NCBI GenBank assembly: GCA_007695295.1
Contig: REEB01000129.1
Coordinates: 1-64,000, forward strand
DNA: 64,000 bases
Direction: 5' to 3'
Source: Puniceicoccaceae bacterium
GTDB taxonomy: Bacteria; Verrucomicrobiota; Verrucomicrobiia; Opitutales; Opitutaceae
Part shown: one piece after another, positions 11,489-25,666 of the stretch
Layout of the letters: each line of letters opens with the position of its first letter
Position numbering within the stretch: position 1 is the stretch's first letter
Position numbers and translations under genes: made by a program
Notes under the pieces: generated by a model
Seen by the model: the letters and a program-made list of their open reading frames with translations, nothing else
Database searches by the model: none
Told to the model about the DNA's origin: nothing

Positions 11489-11600
11489 GGCAGGTGGGCG
11501 AGGCGGGGTCCGAGCGCCCTGACCGGCCTTGGCCTGTGCCGGGATTTCCGAGCCACGGGTATCCGTCCGAGTATGACGGGTTGGTCGGATTCGCTGGGGA
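11484..11600 (+). repeat. Direct repeat R2, copy a
   Basis: About 117 bases that recur, imperfectly and in the same orientation, at 11863-11980. Shared stretches include TTGAGGC, GGGTATCCGTCCGAG and ATGACGGGTTGGTCGGATTC. It starts at the stop codon of the DUF4928 fragment. The pair brackets one copy of the GATTAC-ended repeat. Confidence 0.8.
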
Positions 11601-11862: not shown

Positions 11863-11980
11863 TTTGAGGCGGGGTGGGCGATGCGGTCTGCGAGCGCCTT
11901 GGCCGACCTGCGCCTGTTCCGGGATTACAGAGCCGCGGGTATCCGTCCGAGCATGACGGGTTGGTCGGATTCGGTGGGGA
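11863..11980 (+). repeat. Direct repeat R2, copy b
   Basis: The second copy of the repeat at 11484-11600, with the same orientation and similar length. Its right half overlaps the 3' end of apbE, so the last ~19 codons of that gene are written in repeat sequence. Confidence 0.8.
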
Positions 11981-12782
11981 GGAGAATTGCTCCCAGATGG
12001 GGTGACCTGCGGCAAATGTCAGCGATGGTTGCCGAGCGGAGGCAATAGAAGGCGGTGCTGAGGGCGTCGGCGGTGACGGCATCGGGTGCGAAGGCCCAGG
12101 TGCGGCGCCAATGGGTTGGTGCGGTGTCGCCATCGGGATTGATGAGGTGTGCGCCTTGGACGGCGGTGCCGGAGGCACCGACGGCGGTGTTGCGGAGAGC
12201 CAGGCGGCCGGCGGTGTTTCCTTCGCCGACGCCGATGGACCAGTCGTCGCCTTCGAGGGCCAGGATGCTGCTGCCGCCCGCGGAGAGCAGGGCCTCGTCG
12301 AGATCCCATTCGCGGAGGGTTTCCGCCATTCGGTCGAGCGCGTAGCCCTTGCCGATGCCGCCCAGATCGAGGGCGACGCGGCCGTCGAGCACTTGGGCAC
12401 AGCGGTCCTTGGTGTCGAGAAGGAGCTGGCCTCCGGCGGCGGGTTCTCCGAAGGTCGGACCTTCACCGCGGCGGACATCGAGGTGGTGGCCGAGCGTCGG
12501 GTTGAACGCTCCGGCAGTGAGGGCATGAAGCTCAATGGCCCGGCTCAGGCAAACCACGGTTTCCAGGCTGAGCGGCAGGATATGCCCGGGATCGAGGCGG
12601 GAGAGGGCCGCGATTTCGCTGGCGGGATCGTAGCGATTGAGGAGGGCTTCGATGCGGTCGAGGAGTTGAAAGGCGGCCAGAGCGCCCTGGCCGGCGTAGC
12701 GCGCATCCGGGTGGACGAGTCTGATCTCAAAGCGGGTCGCCATGGCCTCGTGGGTGAAGCTATGCAGACCGGCCGACTTCAT
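11925..12782 (-). CDS. apbE: FAD:protein FMN transferase (ApbE)
   Basis: A 285-residue ApbE family protein, which covalently attaches FMN to threonine residues of flavoproteins. Visible motifs are the N-terminal FTHEAMATRFEI, NRYDPASEIAALSR, the central VALDLGGIGKGYALDRMAETL, the nucleotide-binding ALLSAGGSSILALEG, and the C-terminal metal-site region TWAFAPDAVTADALSTAFYC. The start overlaps the Agl23 stop by four bases (ATGA), so it is the last gene of the long leftward cluster. No signal peptide is obvious. Its last ~19 codons lie in repeat R2 copy b, so the C-terminus may have been altered by the repeat; the catalytic core is intact. Its flavoprotein target is not evident here. Confidence 0.92.
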   Translation of the reverse strand: MKSAGLHSFTHEAMATRFEIRLVHPDARYAGQGALAAFQLLDRIEALLNRYDPASEIAALSRLDPGHILPLSLETVVCLSRAIELHALTAGAFNPTLGHHLDVRRGEGPTFGEPAAGGQLLLDTKDRCAQVLDGRVALDLGGIGKGYALDRMAETLREWDLDEALLSAGGSSILALEGDDWSIGVGEGNTAGRLALRNTAVGASGTAVQGAHLINPDGDTAPTHWRRTWAFAPDAVTADALSTAFYCLRSATIADICRRSPHLGAILLPTESDQPVMLGRIPAAL

Positions 12783-14287
12783 CGTCCCTCCCGATGGAAG
12801 AGCAGGATGATGACCTCGGCCCGCAAACCGAAAAACTCCCAGCGCCACTCCGGCCCGAGCCGGTCTGCCATGCCGCCGAGGGCGTCGCCGGTGGCGATGA
12901 TGAGGTCACCGGCGGCGGGATCGTCCGCGAGATTCTCCCAGTATCCGACATTGGGATACGTCCTAAGGTACCAAGGCAGCGGCCAGTAGTCGTCGCCGAT
13001 CACCCGGATGACGGTCTGATCCGGATCCCTGGCGGCGAGGAGAGCTTCGAGCCGGGGCGGAAGGCGCTCGAGGTCGGTCGTGGTGGGTGCGTAGGCGAGG
13101 GGGTTGGTTGGATCGACGGGAAACCGGAAGCAGAGCGCTCGGGTTTCGGCCAGCAGAAGGAAGGCGAGGGCGGCTCCGGCGGCAGCGAGCAGCAGACCCG
13201 ACCGACTCCGGGTTGGGAGCGAGCAGAGAGCGGCCAGGCCGATCCCCGCCACAAGGGCGGCGGGAGCGGCGAAGTTGAGCAGCAGCCAAGGTGTTTTGTA
13301 AGGAACACATGAATACACGGCGGTAACTGCCACGGTGTAGAGGACCAGAAGCCAGCCCAGAGGTCGGGTGCGCCGCGTGCGCCAGGCCGCCACCGTTCCG
13401 GCCGCGAAGCCGGCCGCCAGCGTCCATCCGAACCAAGGCAGAGAGCGGACATTCGATCCGAGCAACCAACCCGCATACGTGTCCCAAGGTTTTTCGTGTC
13501 CCTGGCCACCGGCGCGGTAGAGGGCTTGGATCCAGCCGCGGACGGCATCGATGAGACCCGAGGGATGCCGGCCGAAGTCGGTGAAGAGGGAGGCGGCCGC
13601 GGCCAGGCCCACCAGTGCGGCGAGGGCGAGATGGGGGGTGCGGAAATTGGCGAGAGTACGTTGGAGGGTTTTTTGGGGAATGGAAACAAGCCATCCGAGG
13701 AAGGCGAGGAGCAGGGCAAGGCCTGTGACAAGGATGGTTTCCTTGGTGGCGATGAGCAGGCCGAAGAAGGCTCCGGCCATCAGTGCCCAGGCCAATCGCC
13801 CGGAGACCAGCCAGCGCCAGAGCGCGGCACCCATGGATGCGGACAGGAGGATGAAGAGCGGTTCATGGATGAAGGTGCCGCCAAAGTAAACAAAGGGCGC
13901 GCCAGCGGCGAGCCACGGCATGGCGGCCGCGGTCTCGCGGCGACCGAGGCCGTCGGCTAGCAACGGAAGGACCAGCAGCAAAAGCGCGGCGCAGACCGCC
14001 GCAACGAGGCGGAGATCAAATGCGGTCAACTCGGCATGGGAGGTGCGGCCGAGCAGTGCGGCGGGGATCCGGGCGATTCTGGCGAGGAGCGGACCATGCC
14101 GGTCTTCCGGGTCATAGTGTGCCTGGCGACCTTCGAGGTGATCGCCCAGAATGCGTGCGTTGACGGCCTCGTCGGTATGCATCGGCCGATCCTCCGCGGC
14201 CGCGAGCGCCAGCAGCAGGGCGGCGACCGCGCAGAGACCGGCAAACAGCCAGAGGCCGGTGGGTTCAGGGAAGGCCGTAGACTTCAA
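12779..14287 (-). CDS. Agl23-like polytopic membrane glycosyltransferase (TIGR03663 type)
   Basis: A 502-residue membrane protein with about ten hydrophobic segments. The early loop PMHTDEAVNARILGDHLEG, with its acidic pair just after the first membrane segment, and the large second half fit the GT39-like family named 'flippase activity-associated protein Agl23' (TIGR03663), related to lipid-linked sugar glycosyltransferases. EKPWDTYAGW and YKTPWLLLNFAAP are also typical. Its substrate is unknown. It overlaps the discoidin-like gene by 23 bases and apbE by 4 bases, so all three are probably translated from one message. In the cluster it may transfer a sugar from a lipid carrier made by the GT2 encoded at 20530-21297. 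Confidence 0.78.
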   Translation of the reverse strand: MKSTAFPEPTGLWLFAGLCAVAALLLALAAAEDRPMHTDEAVNARILGDHLEGRQAHYDPEDRHGPLLARIARIPAALLGRTSHAELTAFDLRLVAAVCAALLLLVLPLLADGLGRRETAAAMPWLAAGAPFVYFGGTFIHEPLFILLSASMGAALWRWLVSGRLAWALMAGAFFGLLIATKETILVTGLALLLAFLGWLVSIPQKTLQRTLANFRTPHLALAALVGLAAAASLFTDFGRHPSGLIDAVRGWIQALYRAGGQGHEKPWDTYAGWLLGSNVRSLPWFGWTLAAGFAAGTVAAWRTRRTRPLGWLLVLYTVAVTAVYSCVPYKTPWLLLNFAAPAALVAGIGLAALCSLPTRSRSGLLLAAAGAALAFLLLAETRALCFRFPVDPTNPLAYAPTTTDLERLPPRLEALLAARDPDQTVIRVIGDDYWPLPWYLRTYPNVGYWENLADDPAAGDLIIATGDALGGMADRLGPEWRWEFFGLRAEVIILLFHREGR

Positions 14288-14930
14288 CCTCGATATAGTG
14301 GTTCATGGCCGAGGTGGTGTTGCCGGAGCTGTAGAGGCGGACGTATCGGGCCTTGATCCCCCGGGCGTCCATGATACGGCCTTCGCTGGTCTCGACGTAG
14401 GCGGGATCCTTGCCAGCGCCGAAGCCGAGTTCGTTGTGGAGATCATTGTTGAAGATGATGGAAACATCCTCTTGGAACTCAGGATCATCGGACAGCTTCA
14501 CGACCACGTTGCGGTAGACGCGTGCCTGGGAGTGGAAGTGCCAAACCACGACCGCGTAGAGCGGGTGGGAGGCTCCGAGGTCGATCTGGACCCATTGCTT
14601 GCCCGGCCCGAGTTCGACATAGAAGCCCTCCTCGCCGTCCTTCTCGCCGTCGGTGATCTGCTCGAGCTCGCCGAGCAGCGGCCAATCATCGGAGGAAGTG
14701 ACGGGCCGGTGGAGCGCGAGATTGGTCACTCCGGCGGTGACAAAAAACGGTGGCCGCGGGCCGGTACGGGGCGGCTCGAGGTGGGGCAGCTGGACGGGAA
14801 CGGGCGTGCCGACGAAAAGCGGGCGCGGCAGTTCGAGACGGAGCGGCACCTGTTCGGGCGGTTCATGCGTTTCGGCCCGGGTTGGAACGGTGGCGGCAAA
14901 GAGGAGCGCGAGGAGGAGGAAATGCTTCAT
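14265..14930 (-). CDS. Secreted discoidin-like (F5/8 type C) domain protein
   Basis: A 221-residue exported protein. It has a signal peptide at residues 1-19 (KHFLLLALLFAATVPTRA) and, after a Pro-rich linker, a domain from about residue 70 that reads like F5/8 type C or discoidin repeats: TNLALHRPVTSSD, FYVELGPGKQWVQIDLGASHPLYAVVVWHFHSQ, VKLSDDPEFQED, and ARYVRLYSSGNT with a final HYIEVEVYG. Such domains bind carbohydrates or serve as beta-sandwich modules in secreted enzymes. No catalytic domain is attached. It begins 14 bases after the Gfo/Idh stop. A glycan-binding accessory role is inferred from the context. Confidence 0.8.
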   Translation of the reverse strand: MKHFLLLALLFAATVPTRAETHEPPEQVPLRLELPRPLFVGTPVPVQLPHLEPPRTGPRPPFFVTAGVTNLALHRPVTSSDDWPLLGELEQITDGEKDGEEGFYVELGPGKQWVQIDLGASHPLYAVVVWHFHSQARVYRNVVVKLSDDPEFQEDVSIIFNNDLHNELGFGAGKDPAYVETSEGRIMDARGIKARYVRLYSSGNTTSAMNHYIEVEVYGLP

Positions 14931-14944
14931 GGAAGAGGGAGCGT

Positions 14945-16312
14945 TCAGACGTCGAAATCGGAGGGCTGGAAGGTGATGAGCCTGCGTTGCTCGACGGCCT
15001 CGATGGCGCGGTAGATGACGACCTCGCTGCGGAAGGCTTCGTCGGCCGGGCAGGTGAGGCGGGCCTCGCCGCGGACAGCCTGGAAGAAATTCTCCAAGTG
15101 CGGCTGGTGGATCGGTTTGTTCAGCACCACGGGCAAGTTGTAGGCGGCGAGGGCGGCCGTCTCCCGGGCATCGATGGTGGCGGAAGACCCGGCCGCGACG
15201 GGCGGAGGCGTGGGCTGGGGCGCGAGGATGCGGCGGCGGACCCACTCCTCCCAGGAAGGAGCGGTTGCTTCGCGGTAGAGAGCGGTGTAGCGGGGGTTTT
15301 CAGAAAGCTTCATCGTGCCCTCGTCGCCCATGAACTGCTCCCAATAACCGCCGCCGGAGCTGGTCGTGGTCTGGACTTGGTAAAAGGCGCGGGCGATGCC
15401 CTCGTCCATGGGGTATTCGTAGATGACCATGGCGTTGTCCATCCACTCGTGATGGTTGTAGTAGTCGGTGCCGCCGCTGCCGAAGACGGTGGCGGGCGAG
15501 CGGTTGAGAAACCAGTTGAAGATATCGATTTGGTGGGCGCCGAGATCGGAGAGCGGGCCACCGCCGTGGTCCTTGAACCAGCGCCAATTACGGAACTGGT
15601 GCATGCTGGTGAAGCCGTACCGGCGCAGCACCTCGCCTGGGATGACGGCGCGCTGCGGCCAGCCGAGATCCGGACTGACGCCGCGGTTCCACTGTGCCTG
15701 GGCGGCGGTGATGCGGCCGAGGAGCCTGGCATCATGGAGGAGGCGATTGCGGGCCAGCAGGTAGCGGGGATTGGAGCGGCGCTGGTGGCCGATCTGGAGG
15801 AGCCGGCCGGTTTCGCGCATGGCGGCGACCATGGAGCGGGCGGCGTCCTCGGTGTGGGCCATCATCTTCTCGCAGTAGACATGTTTGCCGGCGCGGAGGG
15901 CATCGTTGGTGACGGGGGCGTGCCAACTGTCCGTGGTGGCGACGATGACGGCGTCGATCGACGGCACCTTGTCCAGCATGTCCTGGTGATTTTCGAAGGC
16001 GGCCACTTCGCTGAAACCGCTGCGCTGGAGGTAGCGCTGGCCGTAGGTGCGGGCGTATTCCCAGATGTCGCAGACCGCGACAAAACGAACACCTGGGATG
16101 TTGAGCAGAGCCTCCATGAGGATGCGGCCCTGGAGGCCGATGCCGACGAGGGCGATATTGATGGTGGAAGAAGGAGGAGACGAGGCCGCGGCCTGTGCCA
16201 AGAGCGAGCCGGGGCGGGCGAAGGCCATGGCGAGGCTGGCTCCGGCGGCGGTCTTGAGAAAGCGGCGGCGGCCGAGCTCCGGTGGGGGAGCGTCCGGTGA
16301 AGCGGTGTTCAT
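14945..16312 (-). CDS. Tat-exported Gfo/Idh/MocA-family oxidoreductase
   Basis: A 455-residue NAD(P)-dependent oxidoreductase carrying a twin-arginine signal at residues ~14-42 (GRRRFLKTAAGASLAMAFA), so it is predicted to be exported folded with its cofactor. The Rossmann part shows INIALVGIGLQGRILMEALL and AVCDIWEYA; the family lysine lies in VYCEKMMAHT (EKM rather than the common EKP); the second domain has GHQRRSNPRYL and the GGGPLSDLGAHQIDIFNWFL metal/substrate region with His and Asp. Members oxidise sugars, often at C3 of a glucoside. The stop-start overlap (ATGA) with the DoxX-like gene shows tight coupling. Presumably a glycoside dehydrogenase of the cluster's pathway; the substrate is not known. 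Confidence 0.88.
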   Translation of the reverse strand: MNTASPDAPPPELGRRRFLKTAAGASLAMAFARPGSLLAQAAASSPPSSTINIALVGIGLQGRILMEALLNIPGVRFVAVCDIWEYARTYGQRYLQRSGFSEVAAFENHQDMLDKVPSIDAVIVATTDSWHAPVTNDALRAGKHVYCEKMMAHTEDAARSMVAAMRETGRLLQIGHQRRSNPRYLLARNRLLHDARLLGRITAAQAQWNRGVSPDLGWPQRAVIPGEVLRRYGFTSMHQFRNWRWFKDHGGGPLSDLGAHQIDIFNWFLNRSPATVFGSGGTDYYNHHEWMDNAMVIYEYPMDEGIARAFYQVQTTTSSGGGYWEQFMGDEGTMKLSENPRYTALYREATAPSWEEWVRRRILAPQPTPPPVAAGSSATIDARETAALAAYNLPVVLNKPIHQPHLENFFQAVRGEARLTCPADEAFRSEVVIYRAIEAVEQRRLITFQPSDFDV

Positions 16313-16842
16313 GTGCGGGTGATGGAAAAGCGTTGGTGCGGCGTCAGAACGAGGGCGAAACCGATCAGCGCTATATGCACGCCGAGCCAGGCGACGCCGG
16401 CATCCTGGCCAAGCAGAACCAGTCCCATGGTGAGGGCCGTGTAGAGCAGGCCCAGCAAGACCAAGCTCCAGCGGGTGAAAATGCCTGCGATGAGGGTGAG
16501 GCCGAGCAGGAGCAGGATCGGGCCGAGGAGGGCCAGAAAGGGCGCCATGAGAATCCCGGGCAGCAGCGGCTCGGCCAAGAGCTGGGTCTCCATGGTTTCC
16601 GGAAGGGCGCGGTAGTTGCCAAGGGCGTAGAACTTTTCCCGCACTTCAATCATGAGGCCGCTGATGTCCGGCTCGCCGTCGGCGTCGAGCAACGGCATCT
16701 GCACGGTGCGTGTGCCGGCGTATTTTTCGATGCCGGCGACCAAGGCGCGGCCACCCAGCCAGAGACGCAGCACGGCGAGGGCGAGCCCGCGGGTGAGGTC
16801 GGGCCTGGACTCGCCATGGACGGGGGTGGGGAGGTCGCTCAC
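16309..16842 (-). CDS. DoxX-like small integral membrane protein
   Basis: A 177-residue membrane protein with four hydrophobic segments, the first around GLALAVLRLWLGGRALVAGIEKY and the last VAWLGVHIALIGFALVL. The segment count, the size and the LRLWLGG...GIEKY pattern suit the DoxX/DoxD group, which includes quinone- or respiratory-linked proteins. About 50 residues between segments 1 and 2 are soluble (VQMPLLDADGEPDISG). The start is a GTG that overlaps the upstream TGA (GTGA at 16839-16842); longer extensions enter the previous gene and are rejected. Between two exported oxidoreductase-type genes, it might pass reducing equivalents to the respiratory chain, which is only inference. Confidence 0.68.
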   Translation of the reverse strand: MSDLPTPVHGESRPDLTRGLALAVLRLWLGGRALVAGIEKYAGTRTVQMPLLDADGEPDISGLMIEVREKFYALGNYRALPETMETQLLAEPLLPGILMAPFLALLGPILLLLGLTLIAGIFTRWSLVLLGLLYTALTMGLVLLGQDAGVAWLGVHIALIGFALVLTPHQRFSITRT

Positions 16843-18377
16843 AGAGGTTCGATGAAAAGGTTGCGGAAGGCGATGGCGGAGCCGTGGTCCTGGAGGCCGA
16901 TGCGACCTTCCCGGGCCATGTCGCGGTAGGCGTGGCGGAATTTGTTGGGCGTGCCGTCCGGATTGCGGCCGGCTTCGGTCCAGTGGTCGAGATTGGCGTC
17001 GACGATCCATTCGCCGTCGAGCTGCACGCGGATGCGCGGACCCTCGGCGCGAATGACGAAGCGATGCCACTGGCCGGGAACGACGGGGAGCACCCGGCTC
17101 GGCTCGGCGATGTCGTAGATGGCTCCGACGACATGCTTGGGATTGCCGGCTCCACCCTGGAGAATCTGAATTTCGATGGCGTGGTGGAGCCAGTCGACGG
17201 TGTCGCTGACACGGATGAAAACGCCACTGTTGCCCCGCTCCACGGTTTTGAACTCAAGGCTGAGGACGAAGTCTCCGTAGCTCTCGGACGTCCAGAGGTC
17301 GCCTCTGCCGCGGGCGACGAGCACATCGTCCTCCCACTCCCAGGCGCCGGAGCGAAACTCCGCGTTGGAGAGGTCGGGCCGGAGCAGCGGCTGGGCTCCA
17401 GGCCAGCGGGCCTCCTCGCCGGAGACCGGTTCCGCCCAGAGTTCGGCCGCTTCGAAAGTAAAGCCGCGAGGCGGCACCCGGCCGGCGACGAGGTCATCGA
17501 GGTCGGCGGCGAGGGCGCGGCGGAAAAACTCGGCCGAGGCGGCAATCTCCTCGAGGAGGCGGTCGGACTGGTATTCGTATTCAAGATACACGACGCCGGA
17601 GAAGCCTTGGCGGCGGAGTTCCGCAATCATGCCGGCGGCATCGCCCACACCGGTGCCCCAAGGGACATCGCGGGCTTGCCGGGTAAACTCGTCGAGATCT
17701 TTGAAGTGCAGCTCGATGATGCGGCCTTCGGCGAGGCGCAGGGCTTCGACGGGGTCGTGGCCCCCGCGCATCCAGTGGCCGGTGTCGGCGCAGATGCCGA
17801 CGTGCGGGCCGAGATCGGCGACAGCGGCGAGGGCGGTCTCGGGATCGGCATAGCGGGTGGGCGGCGGGTGATTGTGGACGGCCACCTGAATCCCGGCTTC
17901 CGCGGCGAGCTCGGCAATCCAAGGCAGGTCGGAGGTCGGCGGCTCAGAGGCGACCGCCTGCATGCCGAAGGCGACGGCGAAATCGAAAATGCGGCGCCAC
18001 TCCTCGGCATCGCGCCCTCCGACCACGCCGTAACTGGCGGCGGTCATGTTCCGCTCCTCGAGCCAGGCACGGACGGTGTCGCGCAGCTCCGCCGACATGG
18101 TGTGGTGGAGCCGCCCCTCGAGCCCTCCCCCGAGATTCTGCCCGGGGTAGAGCTGCACGGTGCGAAAGCCGAGCTCGCGGGCGGTGTCGAGAGCCGCGAG
18201 CAGCGGCATTTCGCGCAGCGTCCAGAGCTGGATGCCCAGCTCCATGGCCGGGGTATCAGCGGTGGCGGGCCTTGTATCCGGATCTTGGTTGCATCCGGCA
18301 AAGATAAGCAGGCCGGCGGTGGCCAAGACCAGCGTTAGCCGGGACCGGCGTTTCGAAGTGGGGGTGGTGGGGAGCAT
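16839..18377 (-). CDS. Lipoprotein fusing a sugar-epimerase-like TIM barrel to a DUF1080 domain
   Basis: A 512-residue protein with a lipoprotein signal (LATAGLLIFAGC, Cys at about residue 28). Residues ~45-300 form an AP-endonuclease-2/IolE-type TIM barrel (MELGIQLWTLREMPLL, VHNHPPPTRY, GICADTGHWMRGG, IELHFKDLDEF, VYLEYEYQ), the fold of sugar isomerases and epimerases with His, Asp and Glu metal ligands. Residues ~330-512 form a DUF1080 domain, now called 3-keto-disaccharide hydrolase (LVARGRGDLWTSESYGDFVLSLEFK, RGNSGVFIRV, AIEIQILQ, WHRFVIRAEGPRIRVQLDG, GRIGLQDHG, FRNLFIEPL). The fusion joins two activities that are usually separate in glycoside-oxidation loci. The stop and start codons around 18377 overlap with the upstream Gfo/Idh gene. 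Confidence 0.85.
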   Translation of the reverse strand: MLPTTPTSKRRSRLTLVLATAGLLIFAGCNQDPDTRPATADTPAMELGIQLWTLREMPLLAALDTARELGFRTVQLYPGQNLGGGLEGRLHHTMSAELRDTVRAWLEERNMTAASYGVVGGRDAEEWRRIFDFAVAFGMQAVASEPPTSDLPWIAELAAEAGIQVAVHNHPPPTRYADPETALAAVADLGPHVGICADTGHWMRGGHDPVEALRLAEGRIIELHFKDLDEFTRQARDVPWGTGVGDAAGMIAELRRQGFSGVVYLEYEYQSDRLLEEIAASAEFFRRALAADLDDLVAGRVPPRGFTFEAAELWAEPVSGEEARWPGAQPLLRPDLSNAEFRSGAWEWEDDVLVARGRGDLWTSESYGDFVLSLEFKTVERGNSGVFIRVSDTVDWLHHAIEIQILQGGAGNPKHVVGAIYDIAEPSRVLPVVPGQWHRFVIRAEGPRIRVQLDGEWIVDANLDHWTEAGRNPDGTPNKFRHAYRDMAREGRIGLQDHGSAIAFRNLFIEPL

Positions 18378-19714
18378 CAGAAGAGGCGGTAGGATTTGTG
18401 AATGAGGCGGTCGGCTTCGGGCAGCCCCCGGCAGACGCCGGCTTCGCCATCCCAGTCGATCTCGGTGTCGAAGCGGATGGCGAGATTGCCGAGCAGGCAG
18501 AACTCGGTGAGGTCGGCGGAGTGGGTCACGATGTCGGATCCGGCCGGTTCGCCGCCTTTGATGGCATTGATCCACTCGTGGTGGGCATTGGCCCGAGGCA
18601 CGCGCGGGAGGGTGGGGGCAGGGCGTTCGAAGGAGCGCATGCGTTCCTCCGGGAGCAGGCGTGGGGACGTGCTCTGGTCGCCCGGCGAGTAGAGCACGCC
18701 ATCATCACCGAGATAGTAGGAGCCCGAATTCGGCAGCTCCGCGCCCTCGGCGAATCCCGGCGGAAGAGGCGGTTTCTCCCCGCCGTCGTACCAATAGTAG
18801 TCGAGCGCGGGCCGGCCGTCGCGTTCCGGAAAACGGTAACGTACGACCGAGGAGCGGGGAGCGCAGACGGCTGAGTTTCCGCTGCTCCGGGCGGTGATTT
18901 TCACCGAACCACGCAGGTCGAGGGCCCAGAACGGGGCATCCATCAAGTGGCAACCCATGTCGCCGAGGGCGCCACAGCCGTAGTCCCAGAATCCTCTCCA
19001 GCGGAAGGGGGCGATTCCGTGGGCGAAGGCGCGGTCCGGAGCGACGCCGAGCCAGAGATTCCAGTCGAGGGTTTCGGGCGGGTGGTCGCTGGACCGGGGC
19101 AGTTCAATGCCCTGGGGCCAGATGGGGCGGTCCGACCAAGAGTGGACTTCCCGAACCGTTCCGATGGCTCCGGCCGCGATCCACTCCTTGACCCGGCGGG
19201 TGCCTTCGTTGGCGTGGCCTTGGTTGCCCATTTGGGAGACGATGCCGGCCTTGGCGGCGGCGGCTTTGAGGGCCCGGGCTTCCCCGACGGTGTGGGTGAG
19301 GGGCTTTTCGATGTAAACATGTTTGCCCCGCTCGATCGCCATGAGGGCGGGCGGGTAGTGCATGTGATCCGGCGTGGAGATGACGACCGCGTCGATCTGC
19401 TCATCCATCTCGTCGAGCATCGCGCGGAAGTCCCTGTAGCGCGGCACGTGGAGGAACTCCTGGAAGGCGCGCCGGGCCTGGCGGAAGTCGACGTCGCAGA
19501 GGGCGACGATGTCCTCGCCGGCCACGCCATGGAGATTGCCGTGGCCCCGGCCGCCGGCTCCGATGACGGCGATGCGGACCTTGCGGTCGCGCACGAGGTG
19601 GCGGTAGTGCGTTTCCGCGGTGGTGTTGCCGCGGGCCCAGGGAATCACCGCGGTGGCGGCCACGGCGAGGGCGGAGCGCCGGATGAAATTCCGACGAGTC
19701 AGGGAGTCATTCAT
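18377..19714 (-). CDS. Tat-exported Gfo/Idh/MocA-family oxidoreductase (second copy)
   Basis: A 445-residue oxidoreductase with a twin-arginine signal at its start (LTRRNFIRRSALAVAATAVIPWA). The Rossmann motif is VRIAVIGAGGRGHGNL, followed by CDVDFRQARRAF, VVISTPDHMHYP, the classical VYIEKPLTHTVGEA with the family lysine, GNQGHANEGTRRVKEWI, and GALGDMGCHLMDAPFWAL. It differs considerably from the other exported family member at 14945-16312, so the two likely act on different substrates or positions. By family it is an NAD(P)-dependent sugar or sugar-acid dehydrogenase, here predicted periplasmic. It lies 35 bases after the DUF1080 gene and overlaps the fusion gene. No clear Shine-Dalgarno site precedes it. 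Confidence 0.9.
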   Translation of the reverse strand: MNDSLTRRNFIRRSALAVAATAVIPWARGNTTAETHYRHLVRDRKVRIAVIGAGGRGHGNLHGVAGEDIVALCDVDFRQARRAFQEFLHVPRYRDFRAMLDEMDEQIDAVVISTPDHMHYPPALMAIERGKHVYIEKPLTHTVGEARALKAAAAKAGIVSQMGNQGHANEGTRRVKEWIAAGAIGTVREVHSWSDRPIWPQGIELPRSSDHPPETLDWNLWLGVAPDRAFAHGIAPFRWRGFWDYGCGALGDMGCHLMDAPFWALDLRGSVKITARSSGNSAVCAPRSSVVRYRFPERDGRPALDYYWYDGGEKPPLPPGFAEGAELPNSGSYYLGDDGVLYSPGDQSTSPRLLPEERMRSFERPAPTLPRVPRANAHHEWINAIKGGEPAGSDIVTHSADLTEFCLLGNLAIRFDTEIDWDGEAGVCRGLPEADRLIHKSYRLF

Positions 19715-19749
19715 GGGAATGCTGGTGGGGGGAGTTGGGGGAGGGCGGA

Positions 19750-20496
19750 TCAGTCTTCGAGAGGGACGATCCAAATGTTGCGAAACTGGACGCGGTCGCG
19801 GTGGTCCTGAAGCATAAGCGGGGCGGCGTCGGGATGCGGCCTGTACGTCGCGCGGCGGCCGTGGGTGGTCAGCCCCTCAAAGGCGACGTTGTTGTGGACG
19901 ACATGGCCGTTGAAGAGGACCGTGATCTTCGCCGGGCGGAGAAGATCGCCCTCGGGACCGAAGCGGGGGGCGCGGAAGATGATCTCGTAACGATTCCATT
20001 CGCCGGGCGGGCGGGCGGGATCGACGCGGGGCGGGTGCTGGCCGTAGAGGGCTCCGGCCATGCCGTCCGCATAGGTTTCATTGTCCACATTGTCGAGGAT
20101 CTGGACCTCGTAGCGGCCCATGAGGAAAACGCCGCTGTTGCCGCGACCCTGGCCGTGACCCTGCACGGGCTCGGCCACGATCCACTCGAGGTGCAGGTGG
20201 CAGGAGCCGAACGATTCGAGCGTAACCAGATTTCCGCTACGCGGCGTGATTTCGAGGATGCCGTCCTTCACCTTCCACTCCGAAGGCCGCCAATGGTGGA
20301 GACTGTCGCCGTCGAAGAGGACGATCGCGCCCGGCGGGGGAGGGAGCGATGGAAGCTCGCCGGCGGGGAGCGGCTCGACCCGGGGTGGGCGCGGCCGCTC
20401 CGGGTCGTGAACATCCCACAGGGGTTCGGCGTCGGCGAAACAGAGGGTGGCAGAGAGAACTGCGATGGGCAGGGTGGGGAAAAGTCGGGGTATCAC
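19750..20496 (-). CDS. Exported DUF1080 protein (3-keto-disaccharide hydrolase family)
   Basis: A 248-residue protein with a signal peptide (residues 1-21, LFPTLPIAVLSATLCFA) and a DUF1080 domain from residue ~55: AIVLFDGDSLHHWR, EWKVKDGILEITPRSGNLVTLESFGSCHLHLEW, RGNSGVFLMGRYEVQILDN, PGEWNRYEIIFRAPRF, KITVLFNGHVVHNN and LMLQDHRDRVQFRNIWI. The laminin-G-like fold is shared with enzymes that cleave 3-keto-glycosides. It stands alone here, whereas the neighbouring lipoprotein carries a second DUF1080 domain fused to a TIM barrel. It starts 33 bases after the GT2 gene. The presumed substrate is a 3-keto-glycoside produced by one of the Gfo/Idh oxidoreductases. Confidence 0.88.
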   Translation of the reverse strand: MIPRLFPTLPIAVLSATLCFADAEPLWDVHDPERPRPPRVEPLPAGELPSLPPPPGAIVLFDGDSLHHWRPSEWKVKDGILEITPRSGNLVTLESFGSCHLHLEWIVAEPVQGHGQGRGNSGVFLMGRYEVQILDNVDNETYADGMAGALYGQHPPRVDPARPPGEWNRYEIIFRAPRFGPEGDLLRPAKITVLFNGHVVHNNVAFEGLTTHGRRATYRPHPDAAPLMLQDHRDRVQFRNIWIVPLED

Positions 20497-20529
20497 AGAC
20501 TTGAAGGTCTAGAATGCCGGACTGCCGGG

Positions 20530-21297
20530 TCAACCCTCTTGGCGACCCGATGGCTGCAATTTCAGGCGTTCCCGCAGCCGCCACAATTCCCAGAGCATGC
20601 CGGGACCATGGCGGAGCAGGCCGACATGACCGCCGGACTGCTCCGACCACTCGATGGGAACTTCCCGAACCGGGCAGTCCATCTGGTGCAGCCGGGCCAG
20701 CAATTCCACATCGAAGCAAAACCCGGATCCCTCGAGGAGCGGCTCCAGATGTTTCCAGACCGGGCCCGGGATGATTTTGAAACCGCACTGGGAGTCGCGG
20801 ATCCGGCAGCCGGCGATGCGGCCGGCCCAGTAGGAAAACCAGCGGCTGCCGATCCGGCGCAAGCGGTCGCGCCGAACCGGGGGCCCCGCCAACCGCTCCC
20901 GCACCGCGAGCAAAGCACGGTCTTCCGGTCCGGAAACGGCATCAGCGAGCACTCGGCACACTTCGCCCGGCGGCACGGCGCCGTCGGCATCGACAAAGGC
21001 CATCCAACGGGCCGAGCCGCGGTGCCAGCCCGCGAGGATGGCTCCGCCCTTGCGGGTGTTTGAGGGCAGGAGAATCGGGGCCTGGATCCGGCAGTTGCGA
21101 TCCTCCGAGGGGAGAACGGCCCGGATGAGCGCGGCTTGGTCCTGTGGCGGCGAACCATCGTCAACGACTTGGACGACGGTGGAGAACGAGGCCTCGGCGA
21201 GCGACAGCCGCAGCGGGTTGAGGAAAGCGGGCAGCCGGGTGGTTTCCCGGAAGGCAGGAATGACCAGCCAGACGTCCGGGGGGCGGTCGGGGTTCAT
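20530..21297 (-). CDS. Family 2 glycosyltransferase (polyprenyl-phosphate sugar synthase type)
   Basis: A 255-residue cytoplasmic GT-A glycosyltransferase. The N-terminal VWLVIPAFRETTRLPAFL, VQVVDDGSPPQDQ, LLPSNTRKGGAILAGWHRG and MAFVDADGAVPP (the metal-binding DxD region) are typical of GT2 enzymes that make dolichyl- or undecaprenyl-phosphate sugars. RIRDSQCGFKIIPGPVWKHL and GFCFDVELLARLHQMDCPVREVPIEWSEQ match the C-terminal part of that subgroup. There are no membrane helices. It overlaps the solute-binding protein gene by four bases (ATGA). Its product could serve the Agl23-like enzyme encoded later in the cluster. Confidence 0.9.
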   Translation of the reverse strand: MNPDRPPDVWLVIPAFRETTRLPAFLNPLRLSLAEASFSTVVQVVDDGSPPQDQAALIRAVLPSEDRNCRIQAPILLPSNTRKGGAILAGWHRGSARWMAFVDADGAVPPGEVCRVLADAVSGPEDRALLAVRERLAGPPVRRDRLRRIGSRWFSYWAGRIAGCRIRDSQCGFKIIPGPVWKHLEPLLEGSGFCFDVELLARLHQMDCPVREVPIEWSEQSGGHVGLLRHGPGMLWELWRLRERLKLQPSGRQEG

Positions 21298-22988
21298 TCC
21301 CTGCTCCGGCGCAGGATACGCTGGAGTTCGGCTTGAAAGAAGAGGGTGTTGGCTTCGTTGGGGTGGCTGGAGTCCACCAGCAGGCCGAGTTTTTCCGAGC
21401 CGTCAAAAGCGTGGTCGGGGTGGCGCGTTGCAAGCCACCAGGCGGCTCCGATGAGGGTGTCCTGCTGGTTGGTGGCGGTGAGGGCGTTGCGGTGCGCGCT
21501 CTGCATCGAAGGGACGATCTCCTCGAGGAAGGCGGGTTCAAAGCTTTCGATAAAGCGTTCCAGGCCATCCTGGGGTGCGGTCAGGAGGTGCAGGCGGGTG
21601 AGAAACACCCTGCGGTGATCCGGTGAGATCTCGTGAAGCCGGGGTCCGAGAGGGTAACCCTCGAGCCGGGGCATGAACGCCTCCGTGCCGGGAGCGGGAT
21701 CGACTTCGCTGATGGCGGGCAGCCAGCCGCTCTGGCGGACAAAGGTGGTCTGGCCGGGATGGGACGTGAGGTAGCGGAGGAAATCGAGGGCGCGTTCGAC
21801 GCGCTCGTGGGAGTGGATGTTGACGAGGCCGAAGACGCCGCTCGGAAACACTCCCAGCTCGGTCGGCGGACCGTAGGAGAAGGGGGCCCGGGGATGGCCC
21901 GGCTCCGGGGTGGGGATGGGGAAGACAACCACGTCGAAACGCTCGCCCATGATGGAGCGGAAGCTGGCCGCATCCCAGACGGAGGCCGCGATCATGAAGG
22001 CCCTCTCCTGGGTGAAGAGGAAAGTGGCGTCTTCGCGGCGTTGCTGGATGAACCCCGGCTGCATCTGGCGGCCGACTTCACGGGCAAGTTGCAGGCCGGC
22101 ACGGTACAGCTCATCCACGACCAGCCGTTCGCCAGTCAGCATGTCGAGGCGGAGCTGATCGTTGCTGACACGGAAATCAAAGAGCGGCTGCTCATGGACG
22201 AGCATGCGTGAGGTCTGGTTGCCGACGAGGGTATCGATGATGAGGGCGGCGTTGGTGTCGGAGCCGGCGATCGGGATGATGACCCGGCCGGTGGATTCCC
22301 CGAGGCGGCGGGCGGCCTCGCAGAGCTCAAGGAAGGCGTCGTAGGAGGAAGGAATACCCTCCGGACCCAAGCGCTCGGCGAGGCGGGCATTGGCGGGATC
22401 GGCGAGGATTTCGTCAAGGATGCGGCGGTTGGCGAAAATGCGGGTGGTGGAGGCGGAGACGGGGATGCCATGGTGCTCGGCGAGTTCGAAGACGAAGCCG
22501 CCGTACTCCATGCCGTCGAAAAATGTGTCCCGCCAGCGCAGGCCTTCCAGAGGAGTGCCCTCATTGTAGGGGTTGACCTCGGTGATGCGGTCGGAGACGG
22601 GGACGAGGTAGCGGGCCACCATGGAAGTGCTGAGGTTGGCCTGGTTCATCACGATCTCGGGGGCGGTGCCGCCGACGAGCTGGGTGCGCAGCCACTGCTG
22701 GTAGGTGCGGTCGGGCACGGCGAGTTGCTCGACCCGCACGGGGGTGCCGCGGGCCTCCATGAGCGCCTCGTAATCGCGGGCGACCGCGTCGAGGGCTTCA
22801 CGGAGACCGCCGTGCAGAAGTGTATGCGCGAAACGGATACGAGGAATGCCGTCGTCGGGCAAGGTCTCGCGGAAGGCGACCTGGAGAAAGGCGCCTCCGA
22901 GCATGAAAACGATAATGCCGACGCCGAGGCGGCGGGACCACTTGCCGGAATCCGGCGGGCCGGGAATGGGGCGGGCGTCGGGTTTCAC
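21294..22988 (-). CDS. Membrane-anchored extracellular solute-binding protein
   Basis: A 564-residue protein with an N-terminal membrane segment at residues ~20-39 (LGVGIIVFMLGGAFLQVAF), not followed by an obvious cleavage site or lipobox, so it may stay anchored. The rest resembles family 1 ABC-transporter solute-binding proteins for sugars: PRIRFAHTLLHGGLREALDAVARDYEAL, GGTAPEIVMNQ, ASTTRIFANRRILDEI, IPSSYDAFLELCEAAR, and the late VNIHSHERVERALDFLRYLTS and VRQSGWLPAISEV. No permease or ATPase gene is in the cluster. It overlaps the TPR-like gene by four bases upstream and the GT2 gene by four bases downstream. The ligand is presumably a sugar or oligosaccharide. Confidence 0.82.
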   Translation of the reverse strand: MKPDARPIPGPPDSGKWSRRLGVGIIVFMLGGAFLQVAFRETLPDDGIPRIRFAHTLLHGGLREALDAVARDYEALMEARGTPVRVEQLAVPDRTYQQWLRTQLVGGTAPEIVMNQANLSTSMVARYLVPVSDRITEVNPYNEGTPLEGLRWRDTFFDGMEYGGFVFELAEHHGIPVSASTTRIFANRRILDEILADPANARLAERLGPEGIPSSYDAFLELCEAARRLGESTGRVIIPIAGSDTNAALIIDTLVGNQTSRMLVHEQPLFDFRVSNDQLRLDMLTGERLVVDELYRAGLQLAREVGRQMQPGFIQQRREDATFLFTQERAFMIAASVWDAASFRSIMGERFDVVVFPIPTPEPGHPRAPFSYGPPTELGVFPSGVFGLVNIHSHERVERALDFLRYLTSHPGQTTFVRQSGWLPAISEVDPAPGTEAFMPRLEGYPLGPRLHEISPDHRRVFLTRLHLLTAPQDGLERFIESFEPAFLEEIVPSMQSAHRNALTATNQQDTLIGAAWWLATRHPDHAFDGSEKLGLLVDSSHPNEANTLFFQAELQRILRRSRE

Positions 22989-23827
22989 AGCTGGGAGCGC
23001 TCCTCTTCAGTGGCAGCCAGTTCCCTGAGGCGGTCGCGGAAGAATTGCACGATGGTGGAGCGGCTGTGTTCATCAATGTAGCGTTGGGCGGCTTCGATGG
23101 CGAGGTCGGTGCGGCCGAGTTCGTAGGCGAGATTGTGGATGCGCACGATCATGAGGGCGCGGATGTCGAAGCGGGAGTAGCCGATGGCTTCGCCTTTTTG
23201 GTAGATTTCCAAGGCGCGTTCGAGGCTGCCGCCGTGCCGGATGACGGCGTCGCCCATGGTCCAGCAAAAGTTGCGAAGCAGGACGGGGTCGGTGATGGAC
23301 TCACCGCGGCGAAGCCAGTAGTCGACCCGCTCGACGCCGGGTTTTGAGCGGTCGGCCCGGTTGAGTTCGAGGGAGGCGAGTTTGAGGATGGCAAACTGGC
23401 CGAACCAGTTATCGGGATGGCTGTTGGCGAGTTGCTCGAAGCGACGCGCGGCTTCGTCGAGATTGGGAGGGCTGCGGTGGGTCTGCTCGATCCGGGCGAG
23501 GTAAAAAAGAGCCGCGATCCCGAGGTCGTCGGCGGGGTCGGCCTCGCGAACCCGCTGGAAAAGGGCGGCGGCCTCGTTGGTGCGCCCTGGGGTGATGGGC
23601 GGGGCGCTGAGGAGGACGAGGGCAAGGCAAAAGTCCCGCTCCCGGATCACGGGAGGTGAATCGGACTCGACCGACCGGATGAGCTGGAGGGCGGCGGGAA
23701 AGTCCTGAAGCGCGGCTGCATGCATGGCCTGCGCGAGGGGGTCGGGCAATTCGTGGGGCGGACCGGGCGGGAGGACGGCGCCGGTCGAGGCAAGCGTCAG
23801 CAGGGAGGCAAGAAGCAGTGGGAGCAT
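22985..23827 (-). CDS. Secreted TPR-like repeat protein
   Basis: A 280-residue protein with a signal peptide (LPLLLASLLTLASTGAVL) and an all-helical mature part. Helix pairs resembling tetratricopeptide repeats include HAAALQDFPAALQLIRSV, NEAAALFQRVREADP, LDEAARRFEQLANSHPDNWFGQFAILKLASLEL and SLERALEIYQKGEAIGYS. No catalytic motif is present. It is the first gene of the co-directional cluster if GH3, 220 bases upstream, is transcribed separately. It overlaps the solute-binding protein gene (ATGA), so it likely scaffolds or assists that protein; its partner cannot be deduced. Confidence 0.75.
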   Translation of the reverse strand: MLPLLLASLLTLASTGAVLPPGPPHELPDPLAQAMHAAALQDFPAALQLIRSVESDSPPVIRERDFCLALVLLSAPPITPGRTNEAAALFQRVREADPADDLGIAALFYLARIEQTHRSPPNLDEAARRFEQLANSHPDNWFGQFAILKLASLELNRADRSKPGVERVDYWLRRGESITDPVLLRNFCWTMGDAVIRHGGSLERALEIYQKGEAIGYSRFDIRALMIVRIHNLAYELGRTDLAIEAAQRYIDEHSRSTIVQFFRDRLRELAATEEERSQL

Positions 23828-24047: not shown

Positions 24048-25391
24048 TCAGGACTCGTCTTCCTGGTGAAACTTGGCGCGTTCGCGGAGGCGATCGGCGA
24101 GGGATGTATCCGGCAGGGAAGGACAGTGAAACGGCCGCCCGGGCGAAAGCTCGGCAAAGGTTCCCGGGGTCAGGAGGCAGACCCAGGGCGGGGCCAGCGC
24201 GCCCTTGGTCCGGGCGCGGTCGTAGGTGGGCACGGCTTGGCGGAGATGGTGGTCGAGTTCGGCGGCGATGGTTTTGGAAATCGGGGTTTCGCGGCAGGCG
24301 GGATCGAGCTCGATCCACCACTCGTGGCGGAGCGTCCGTTGCGGCCGGTCGACCGAAGGCGGCCGCAGGTGGGGGGCGACATGAAACTGCTGGAGCCGCC
24401 AGTGGTGCCGCTGACAGAGCAGGGCCACGGCGTCTTCAAGGTCGCGGGGCCAGACCGCTTCCCCGGCGGCATGGAGCCGGGCGGAGAGCCGTCCGAGCGG
24501 GAGCAGGCGGGGTGGATGGTGTGAAAGCCAGCGGACCCCGTAGGGCCAAACGGTACGCACGGCGCCGTTGAGTGTTGTGACCACCGGGAGGTAGTCGCGT
24601 CCGGGCTCGGTGGCATCGGAGGAGCGAAGAGCCTTGCGGGCCGCATTCCAGTCGGGACTGCCGGCGCGATCGACAGGCAGCCACTCGAAGTAGAGCCCGG
24701 TGTCCGTAAAGAGGGTGATGCCAGGGCCGGCCCAGAGGCCGCCGGCGCCGATGACCCAGCCACCGAGAACCAAGATCTCAAGCAGGCGAAGCGGACCGCC
24801 GAGGTTCTCGGCCCAGTGGGACCGCAGCAGATTCGGAGCCCAGCCCGAGACCATGGCGAGCCGTCGCTCGTGCTCGGCAAGACCAAGCGACTGCCACTGG
24901 GCGAGAGTGAGTCCGTCGGCCGCGACGACCGGAGTCGCGGGGATCGGGCCGGGCGGGATGCCTTGGTCATCGAAGAGAGCGGCCGCGGGCCAAAGCCGGC
25001 CTGCGTTCCGGCCCAGCACCGACCGCAGCGAGCCGCTGCGCAGGGGAGATTCCCATGGGGGAAAGAGCCAGCAGACGTCTTTCCCGACCGTTGGGAGATC
25101 CGGGCAGACGGCTCGGGCATGGACTTGCAGGCGTCTGGCTGTGCGATTCAGTGATGAGGCCAAGGCGGGAGGGCAGGCCGGGCTGGCCAGGGACGCCTGT
25201 TTGGCGGAGGCCTGCAGGATGGTGAGGGGGACTTCGGAGGCAAATTTCCCGCCGGTGGCGAGATCCCGGCCCAGACCGGCGGCGGTCAGACAATCCCTCA
25301 GGGTTTGGGCCTGGTGCTGAGCCACCGCGGTGAGACGGCTATAGCGCCAGCGGGCGACGGCTTCCCTGAGAGACTGAGTCAAACCGGTCAT
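24048..25391 (-). CDS. GH3-family protein (acyl-adenylate-forming superfamily)
   Basis: A 447-residue protein resembling the GH3 auxin-responsive family, whose plant members conjugate amino acids to acyl-adenylates; bacterial members are largely uncharacterised. Family-like stretches are GKFASEVPLTILQASAKQAS (early), VSGWAPNLLRSHWAENLGGPLRLL, GLYFEWLP, GRDYLPVVTTLNGAVRTVWPYGVRWLSH (the loop expected near the ligand) and the C-terminal ELDHHLRQAVPTYDRARTKGALAPPWVCLLTPGTFAEL. The length is a little short of the usual ~500. The start at 25391 is the first methionine giving a helical MTGLTQSLREAVARW; codons upstream are not protein-like. It is separated from its neighbours by 220 and 308 bases, so it may be a single-gene unit. 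Confidence 0.75.
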   Translation of the reverse strand: MTGLTQSLREAVARWRYSRLTAVAQHQAQTLRDCLTAAGLGRDLATGGKFASEVPLTILQASAKQASLASPACPPALASSLNRTARRLQVHARAVCPDLPTVGKDVCWLFPPWESPLRSGSLRSVLGRNAGRLWPAAALFDDQGIPPGPIPATPVVAADGLTLAQWQSLGLAEHERRLAMVSGWAPNLLRSHWAENLGGPLRLLEILVLGGWVIGAGGLWAGPGITLFTDTGLYFEWLPVDRAGSPDWNAARKALRSSDATEPGRDYLPVVTTLNGAVRTVWPYGVRWLSHHPPRLLPLGRLSARLHAAGEAVWPRDLEDAVALLCQRHHWRLQQFHVAPHLRPPSVDRPQRTLRHEWWIELDPACRETPISKTIAAELDHHLRQAVPTYDRARTKGALAPPWVCLLTPGTFAELSPGRPFHCPSLPDTSLADRLRERAKFHQEDES

Positions 25392-25635
25392 CTGACCGAC
25401 AGATTGGTCATTGGCTCCGTATGCGCAAAGCCTAACCGAACGAGTCGGAAGCATCCGGCGGGTGTCAGCTGAAACGACCGCGTCGGAGGGGCTGCATCTG
25501 AAACACGGGCCATGCCAGCACTCATCGGCCGGAATCACCGTTAAATTGACCCCGAACCCCAAGATTCGCAAAAGGTTGCGCTCCGCAGGGGTATCCCGAA
25601 GTGGGAATGGGCGTCCGGCCACGCACGGTGGCAGC

Positions 25636-25666
25636 AAAAAGCCCCCTTCCCCGAAAGGAAGAGGGC
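25636..25666 (-). terminator. Rho-independent terminator after the PEP-CTERM gene
   Basis: On the minus strand a 10-pair stem, GCCCTCTTCC with GGAAGGGGGC (one G-T pair), closes a 6-base loop and is followed by five T residues. It lies 34 bases after the stop of the PEP-CTERM gene. Between it and the GH3 start, 25392-25635 holds no gene that I can support and should contain the GH3 promoter. Confidence 0.85.

Follow-up and report, generated by a model that had tools for sequence, protein, structure and literature searches.

In a 64,000-nucleotide stretch of a Puniceicoccaceae genome (contig REEB01000129.1; the whole stretch is hereafter the window), eleven genes running leftward from 23827 to 11925 form a mosaic: a TPR/solute-binding pair, a module for 3-keto glycosides (g04-g06), and a core of five genes (g07-g11) that encodes a DoxX-like protein, a Gfo/Idh oxidoreductase called Gfo2 here, a lectin, Agl23, and ApbE. 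The core is conserved in Verrucomicrobiota and Acidobacteria. It looks new, although provisionally so: the literature searched, which included few subscription papers, held no description of it and nothing linking ApbE with DoxX, and among papers combining any two of DoxX, MocA, ApbE, and discoidin the titles listed were unrelated. As its best explanation we favor, at somewhat less than even confidence, a periplasmic sugar dehydrogenase loaded with nicotinamide adenine dinucleotide (NAD) that passes electrons to the membrane via an ApbE-fixed flavin and serves the breakdown of 3-keto glycosides encoded in the same operon.

A preliminary description of this DNA had proposed a tightly packed, eleven-gene leftward cluster acting as one periplasmic 3-keto-glycoside pathway. 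The cluster itself was borne out: the frames are open with zero internal stops, no intergenic gap exceeds 35 bases, and overlaps of 1-4 bases occur at most junctions. Matches to Pfam and NCBIfam also support its labels for two Gfo/Idh proteins exported by twin-arginine translocation (Tat), a solute-binding protein, GT2, ApbE, and Agl23, as well as for a TIM-barrel domain, which matches AP_endonuc_2. The genes, in coordinates of the window, are:

22985..23827, minus strand: g01, TPR protein, first gene of the operon (weak TPR_6/TPR_16 matches)
21294..22988, minus strand: g02, membrane-anchored solute-binding protein (SBP_bac_8, 57 bits)
20530..21297, minus strand: g03, GT2, probably polyprenyl-phosphate-hexose-synthase-like (PF00535, 38 bits)
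19750..20496, minus strand: g04, secreted single-domain DUF1080 protein of the 3-keto-glycoside cleavage family (PF06439, 143 bits)
18377..19714, minus strand: g05, Tat Gfo/Idh, BT_2158-like glycoside 3-dehydrogenase (NF058561, 397.7 bits; 8tdf, E 4.3e-82)
16839..18377, minus strand: g06, lipoprotein that combines a TIM barrel and DUF1080 in one chain (AP_endonuc_2 and PF06439 both exceed their cut-offs; lipobox in the sequence)
16309..16842, minus strand: g07, DoxX/MauE-like membrane protein (weak MauE match)
14945..16312, minus strand: g08 (Gfo2), Tat-exported NAD-type Gfo/Idh oxidoreductase (Gfo/Idh match, Tat motif, structure model)
14265..14930, minus strand: g09, secreted CBM32-like (discoidin) lectin (F5_F8_type_C_2 family matches, structure model)
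12779..14287, minus strand: g10, Agl23-type polyprenyl-phosphate-sugar GT-C/flippase (TIGR03663, 141.1 bits against a cut-off of 126.25)
11925..12782, minus strand: g11, ApbE without a signal peptide (PF02424, 121 bits)

Three starts were corrected from the sequence, to ATG 18377 for g06, GTG 16842 for g07, and ATG 12782 for g11, each overlapping the preceding stop by 1-4 bases. The Agl23 gene starts either at TTG 14287, with a 23-base overlap, or at ATG 14182, with a gap of about 80 bases.

The core stands out by its conserved order. A one-per-species genome scan with Agl23 gave 26 loci, one of them from a Lentisphaerae record and the others from Verrucomicrobia and Acidobacteria (including Granulicella and Terracidiphilus), and DoxX, Gfo2, lectin, Agl23, and ApbE follow one another in the same order and on the same strand in 17 of them. 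Among 39 lectin-anchored loci, 15 show this full order and 28 show DoxX-Gfo2-lectin. In total, after removal of two duplicates (L129 and L088), 34 of the 63 lectin-bearing loci other than the window keep the full core order, several of the loci being cut by contig ends. The comparison of gene order across relatives, proposed in the preliminary description, revealed conserved clustering for g05-g11, whose order is identical in three other genomes (L057, L083, and L085), and since gene order is kept across genera and phyla the cluster goes beyond chance. No locus with the complete eleven-gene order was found among the loci examined that were anchored on the solute-binding protein, TIM-DUF1080, Agl23, or the lectin. 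The combination of GT2, Agl23, and ApbE genes had earlier been noted as unrecognised; Agl23 and ApbE are now accounted for as parts of a separate conserved core with DoxX, Gfo2, and the lectin.

For co-inheritance, we searched 286 genomes, sampled from one class, with profiles for the five core proteins, using cut-offs of E<=1e-60 for Gfo2 and E<=1e-15 for DoxX and leaving out five weak lectin matches (G141, G190, G254, G280, and G317) and ApbE matches weaker than 2.1e-26, except a split match in G136. The lectin is present in 84 genomes and Agl23 in 123, including 83 of the 84 with the lectin; Gfo2 is present in 62 and core-type ApbE in 66, including 61 of the 62 with Gfo2. DoxX was found in 56 genomes, 52 of them among the 62 with Gfo2. 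The commonest patterns are all five core genes (50 genomes), Agl23 only (38), lectin and Agl23 only (19), and all except DoxX (10), followed by lectin, Agl23, and ApbE without Gfo2 or DoxX (3), DoxX only (3), and five further patterns in one genome each. The core thus contains two linked pairs, lectin with Agl23 and Gfo2 with signal-less ApbE. Gfo2 is spread over 20 sampled families, and core-type ApbE is present in every one; conversely, a renewed Gfo2 search of the 20 lectin genomes lacking core-type ApbE gave no match at E<=1e-60. Core-type ApbE occurs without detected Gfo2 in G221, G285, G290, G295, and G331, the last being the weakest ApbE retained, and two of the exceptions are incomplete or split assemblies, G153 (75% complete) and G192 (Gfo2 and ApbE on different short contigs).

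All 55 Gfo2 family members analyzed carry a Tat-type RRxF/L motif near the start. Invariant residues in the family alignment include G57, G59, K149, D256, and H260, which we take to be Rossmann and catalytic residues of the Gfo/Idh fold. The structure model of Gfo2 is a Gfo/Idh protein with a predicted local distance difference test (pLDDT) score of 87, with low confidence at residues 1-6 and 23-46, and its fold matches DgpA2, GFOR, and related enzymes. Zymomonas GFOR and Caulobacter aldose-aldose oxidoreductase, both with a tightly bound nicotinamide, are among the top fold matches and share the Gfo/Idh fold, whereas the sequence match of Gfo2 is confined to the N-terminal part and Gfo2, for its part, is linked with ApbE and with a partner in the membrane. 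A Thr-Thr-Thr hairpin between two strands (T315-T317, with Thr in 52, 54, and 55 of the 55 members, respectively) is our guess for a candidate flavin site; 54 of 56 paralogous open reading frames (ORFs) do not align there.

The partner of Gfo2, ApbE, is predicted to be cytoplasmic and lacks the signal peptide or lipid anchor of the extracytosolic type. In 52 of the 55 family members, no hydrophobic stretch precedes the FAD-binding motif, even from the furthest possible start, and in the other three a stretch occurs far upstream, by read-through only; the hydrophobicity limits of this ApbE/Tat signal scan were our own choice. In the alignment of 55 (PF02424), the motifs DLG.IGKG, G.H...P, and DALSTA are intact, and we assume that they are catalytic. 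Excerpts of PMC12052999 describe the conserved His as catalytic, D-x-x-[ST]-G-A-[ST] as the motif that ApbEs recognise, and the existence of cytosolic ApbEs, for example in Klebsiella. The eLife flavinylation survey excluded genes that lacked a signal peptide and did not account for some genomes with orphan ApbE (PMC8238504). In the host genome (G000, 4.6 Mb), g11 is the single ApbE and no FMN_bind protein was found; across 26 core-positive genomes, 14 have a single ApbE match, and FMN_bind is present in 4 and absent from 22. A role of this ApbE in serving NqrC/RnfG-type proteins is unlikely for the host genome, which has no FMN_bind, within a search that did not extend to NqrB/RnfD (PF03116), DUF2271, and DUF3570.

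Known ApbE systems offer two comparisons. In excerpts of PMC8238504, PMC11334425, and PMC12052999, the NQR/RNF, DUF2271, DUF3570, and DUF4405 systems resemble the core in that apbE neighbors genes for an exported redox protein and an electron carrier of the membrane, whereas the core ApbE is cytosolic by sequence and no FMN_bind partner or SGAT-type motif was seen. The cytoplasmic ApbE of Klebsiella and its soluble fumarate reductase, as described in passages of PMC12052999, share with the core a signal-less ApbE dedicated to one oxidoreductase; the presumed client of the core ApbE, in contrast, is Tat-exported.

For g07, the DoxX-like label given earlier is weak, with a best match to MauE at E 0.0085 and 16.8 bits against a Pfam cut-off of 27; among 46 family members, 13 match MauE and 7 match DoxX at E<=0.01. 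In four loci from one genus, none with a DoxX profile match, the stretch between Gfo2 and ApbE encodes a cytochrome c and a four-helix membrane protein (L143 12483-14777, L149 12063-14351, L169 3697-5991, and L170 5212-7500). The cytochrome has seven CxxCH motifs in L143 and L149, the two counted, and its substitution for DoxX is one event in one genus.

The module formed by g04-g06 is the part that fits the proposed 3-keto-glycoside pathway. Residues 38-426 of g05 align with 8tdf, making it a full-length relative of the solved dehydrogenases 8tdf and 8tdh, and its score against the NCBIfam BT_2158 glycoside 3-dehydrogenase model is below the equivalog cut-off of 750 bits. Both expected DUF1080 domains were recovered (PF06439, 119 and 143 bits, cut-off 26.8), and these two, in g04 and g06, are the only ones detected in the host genome. 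Oxidation of a glucoside at C3 by g05, followed by cleavage by the DUF1080 domains of g04 and g06, fits these sequence matches. The suggestion that both Gfo/Idh proteins are C3 dehydrogenases fits the BT_2158-like g05 and is not supported for g08, which is far from the BT_2158 and BT_2159 models; for the BT_2159-like disaccharide 3-dehydrogenase, g08 reaches 29.1 and g05 21.3 bits against a cut-off of 650. Nor do all eleven genes form one conserved pathway, as the TPR/solute-binding pair also occurs alone and Agl23 and ApbE sit in the separate core. LacABC of Caulobacter is a GMC flavoprotein with a cytochrome. According to parts of PMC9007349, the Caulobacter lactose route likewise feeds a DUF1080 hydrolase by periplasmic C3 oxidation, with LacABC where the host operon has Gfo/Idh enzymes. 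Also comparable are BT2158, described in excerpts of PMC11300592 as a periplasmic glycoside 3-dehydrogenase required for growth on disaccharides, and the DUF1080 protein BT2157, a 3-ketotrehalose hydrolase in excerpts of PMC9007349. The host operon shares with this Bacteroides set (BT2157/BT2158/BT2159) a periplasmic Gfo/Idh glycoside 3-dehydrogenase and a DUF1080 cleavage protein, whereas g05 stays below the equivalog cut-off, g06 fuses a TIM barrel to DUF1080, a BT_2159-like second dehydrogenase is missing, and the Gfo2/ApbE/Agl23/lectin/DoxX core is added. Counting the window, 32 of 63 core loci contain ORFs for ThuA, DUF1080, or TIM-DUF1080, a neighborhood that is supportive only, because TIM-barrel/DUF1080 relatives of g06 are frequent in the class (138 of 236 genomes).

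Put together, the operon would combine a periplasmic 3-keto-glycoside module with a conserved redox core that oxidises sugars in the periplasm. While g05 would oxidise C3 of the glucoside and the DUF1080 domains would cleave the product, Gfo2 would be loaded with NAD, receive a covalent flavin from signal-less ApbE before export, cross the membrane folded via Tat, and oxidise a sugar while the CBM32-like protein holds it. We propose that Gfo2 is re-oxidised by membrane electron transfer because its NAD cannot leave; its electrons would normally reach quinone through the DoxX-like protein, and in one genus the exit would be the seven-haem cytochrome c with the four-helix membrane protein. GT2 and Agl23 may supply a lipid-linked or protein-linked sugar needed by the lectin. 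Here we infer the flavinylation, Gfo2 as its client, the direction of the electrons, the substrate, and the link between the core and 3-keto cleavage. More specifically, Gfo2 could be a covalently flavinylated Gfo/Idh/MocA protein, i.e., a Tat-exported sugar dehydrogenase with NAD and flavin mononucleotide (FMN) that a cytosolic ApbE modifies by way of a new recognition site and that respires periplasmic sugars through interchangeable outlets (DoxX or multihaem cytochrome), a proposal that we consider doubtful.

Several observations weigh against this electron-transfer reading. A loose regular expression for the flavinylation motif, applied to eight core and neighbor families, gave stray matches only: a D-x-x-[ST]-G-A-[ST]-like motif is found in 0 of 55 Gfo2, 0 of 47 DoxX, and 0 of 54 Agl23 sequences, and in the lectin there is one chance-like match among 63. 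Ten of the 62 Gfo2 genomes have no DoxX profile match; in one of these ten (L156), a divergent DoxX-like gene adjoins Gfo2. Genus g96 (L140 and L142) shows neither a DoxX nor a cytochrome match, and a YceI-like gene adjoins ApbE instead (L142 6581-7273; L140 4445-5032). No ThuA/DUF1080 neighbor lies within the stretch covered in 31 of the 63 core loci, which makes a link to 3-keto genes optional. We picked the score cut-off for ApbE by eye once the list was seen, and the Fisher values overstate significance because related genomes are not independent. Finally, the redox model does not explain what Agl23 and the lectin do; this is its weakest part and keeps alive an explanation by envelope glycosylation.

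In that alternative, which we regard as possible if on the unlikely side, GT2 would make a polyprenyl-phosphate-hexose, Agl23 would flip or transfer it, Gfo2, with its ApbE flavin and DoxX exit, would oxidise or epimerise the periplasmic lipid-linked sugar, and the lectin would be acceptor or reader, much as DprE1/DprE2 serve arabinosyltransferases. It draws on the near inseparability of lectin and Agl23 (83/84), which also form adjacent pairs standing alone: Agl23 follows as the nearest core gene, without Gfo2 or ApbE, in 14 of 14 lectin loci of this kind that were examined. Ten such pairs inspected by eye share no neighbor gene. The lectin label had been discoidin-like; g09 itself falls just under the Pfam cut-off, yet F5_F8_type_C_2 matches 63 of 63 family members, and the model (pLDDT 92) has a galactose-binding-like fold with CBM32-type matches (E 3e-8, template-modelling score by target about 0.7). 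By genome coordinates, Agl23 and ApbE are adjacent even apart from the lectin, which also speaks for glycosylation. So does the Agl23 of Haloarcula, which excerpts of PMC11182771 present as a putative hexose-phosphate-dolichol flippase that moved a lipid-linked glycan in liposomes. By homology, g10 is a putative flippase or transferase of polyprenyl-linked sugar, the reported activity being that of the archaeal member only. A GT2-like ORF accompanies the core in 15 of 68 regions, the host operon and 14 others, in most of which it lies near Agl23/ApbE, a count that omits two distant low-score matches (L061 and L070). Most core loci, however, are without GT2, no recurring envelope-polymer genes were seen among the core neighbors, and the recurrent neighbors are catabolic (ThuA, DUF1080, TIM barrel, and, by eye, MFS). 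The host GT2, g03, matches ArnC/AglJ/PpgS-type models weakly; the GT2 gene directly behind Agl23 in L141 (12123-12818) belongs to another subfamily.

An ordinary 3-keto-glycoside operon, in which both Gfo/Idh proteins oxidise and re-reduce in a redox-neutral manner and ApbE, Agl23, and DoxX are loose passengers, is improbable. It suits g05 and the DUF1080 domains, which fit known families, and the confinement of the DUF1080 domains detected in the host genome to this operon, but passengers would not co-occur in 61 of 62 and 83 of 84 genomes or persist at loci without 3-keto genes. Quite improbable, too, is that the client of ApbE is DoxX or a cytosolic flavoprotein encoded elsewhere, with shared regulation accounting for the link to Gfo2: Gfo2 has no recognised flavinylation motif, but DoxX is absent or replaced in several genomes with Gfo2 and ApbE and is for that reason the less constant partner.

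The first genes of the operon have a distribution of their own. Matches to the g02 solute-binding protein occur in 18 of 95 genomes, and a TPR gene adjoins the solute-binding gene in 10 of 19 regions compared (one from the host genome, the others from relatives), none of which contains g03, g04, g06, g07, g09, g10, or g11. In the host genome, locus L033 (contig C88, 7969-14233) holds a second TPR/solute-binding pair, followed by a large TonB-dependent-receptor-like ORF, recognized by eye, and a Gfo/Idh-like ORF. Contig C1 of G005 has twelve matches to g02, an unusual expansion of solute-binding genes.

The borders of the operon are not proven, because the promoter scan found 0 sites against 1.4 expected and the terminator scan was close to chance (15 against 10.7). 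About 220 bases upstream lies a leftward ORF (24048-25637, GH3_C-like, auxin-conjugase-like), excluded from the operon. The gap after g11 contains two 54-base direct repeats that are 81% alike (11493-11546 and 11873-11926) and a 32-base inverted repeat.

If periplasmic sugar oxidation with membrane electron transfer is indeed the function of the core, it would explain how exported NAD-dependent sugar dehydrogenases dispose of their electrons, and a client would be found for the set of ApbEs that the earlier survey filtered out. A widespread, unnamed sugar-oxidation core, with Gfo2 in 62 of the 286 class genomes and also in Acidobacteria, would then join the carbon cycling of soil and water, and several "hypothetical" genes would become a testable set.

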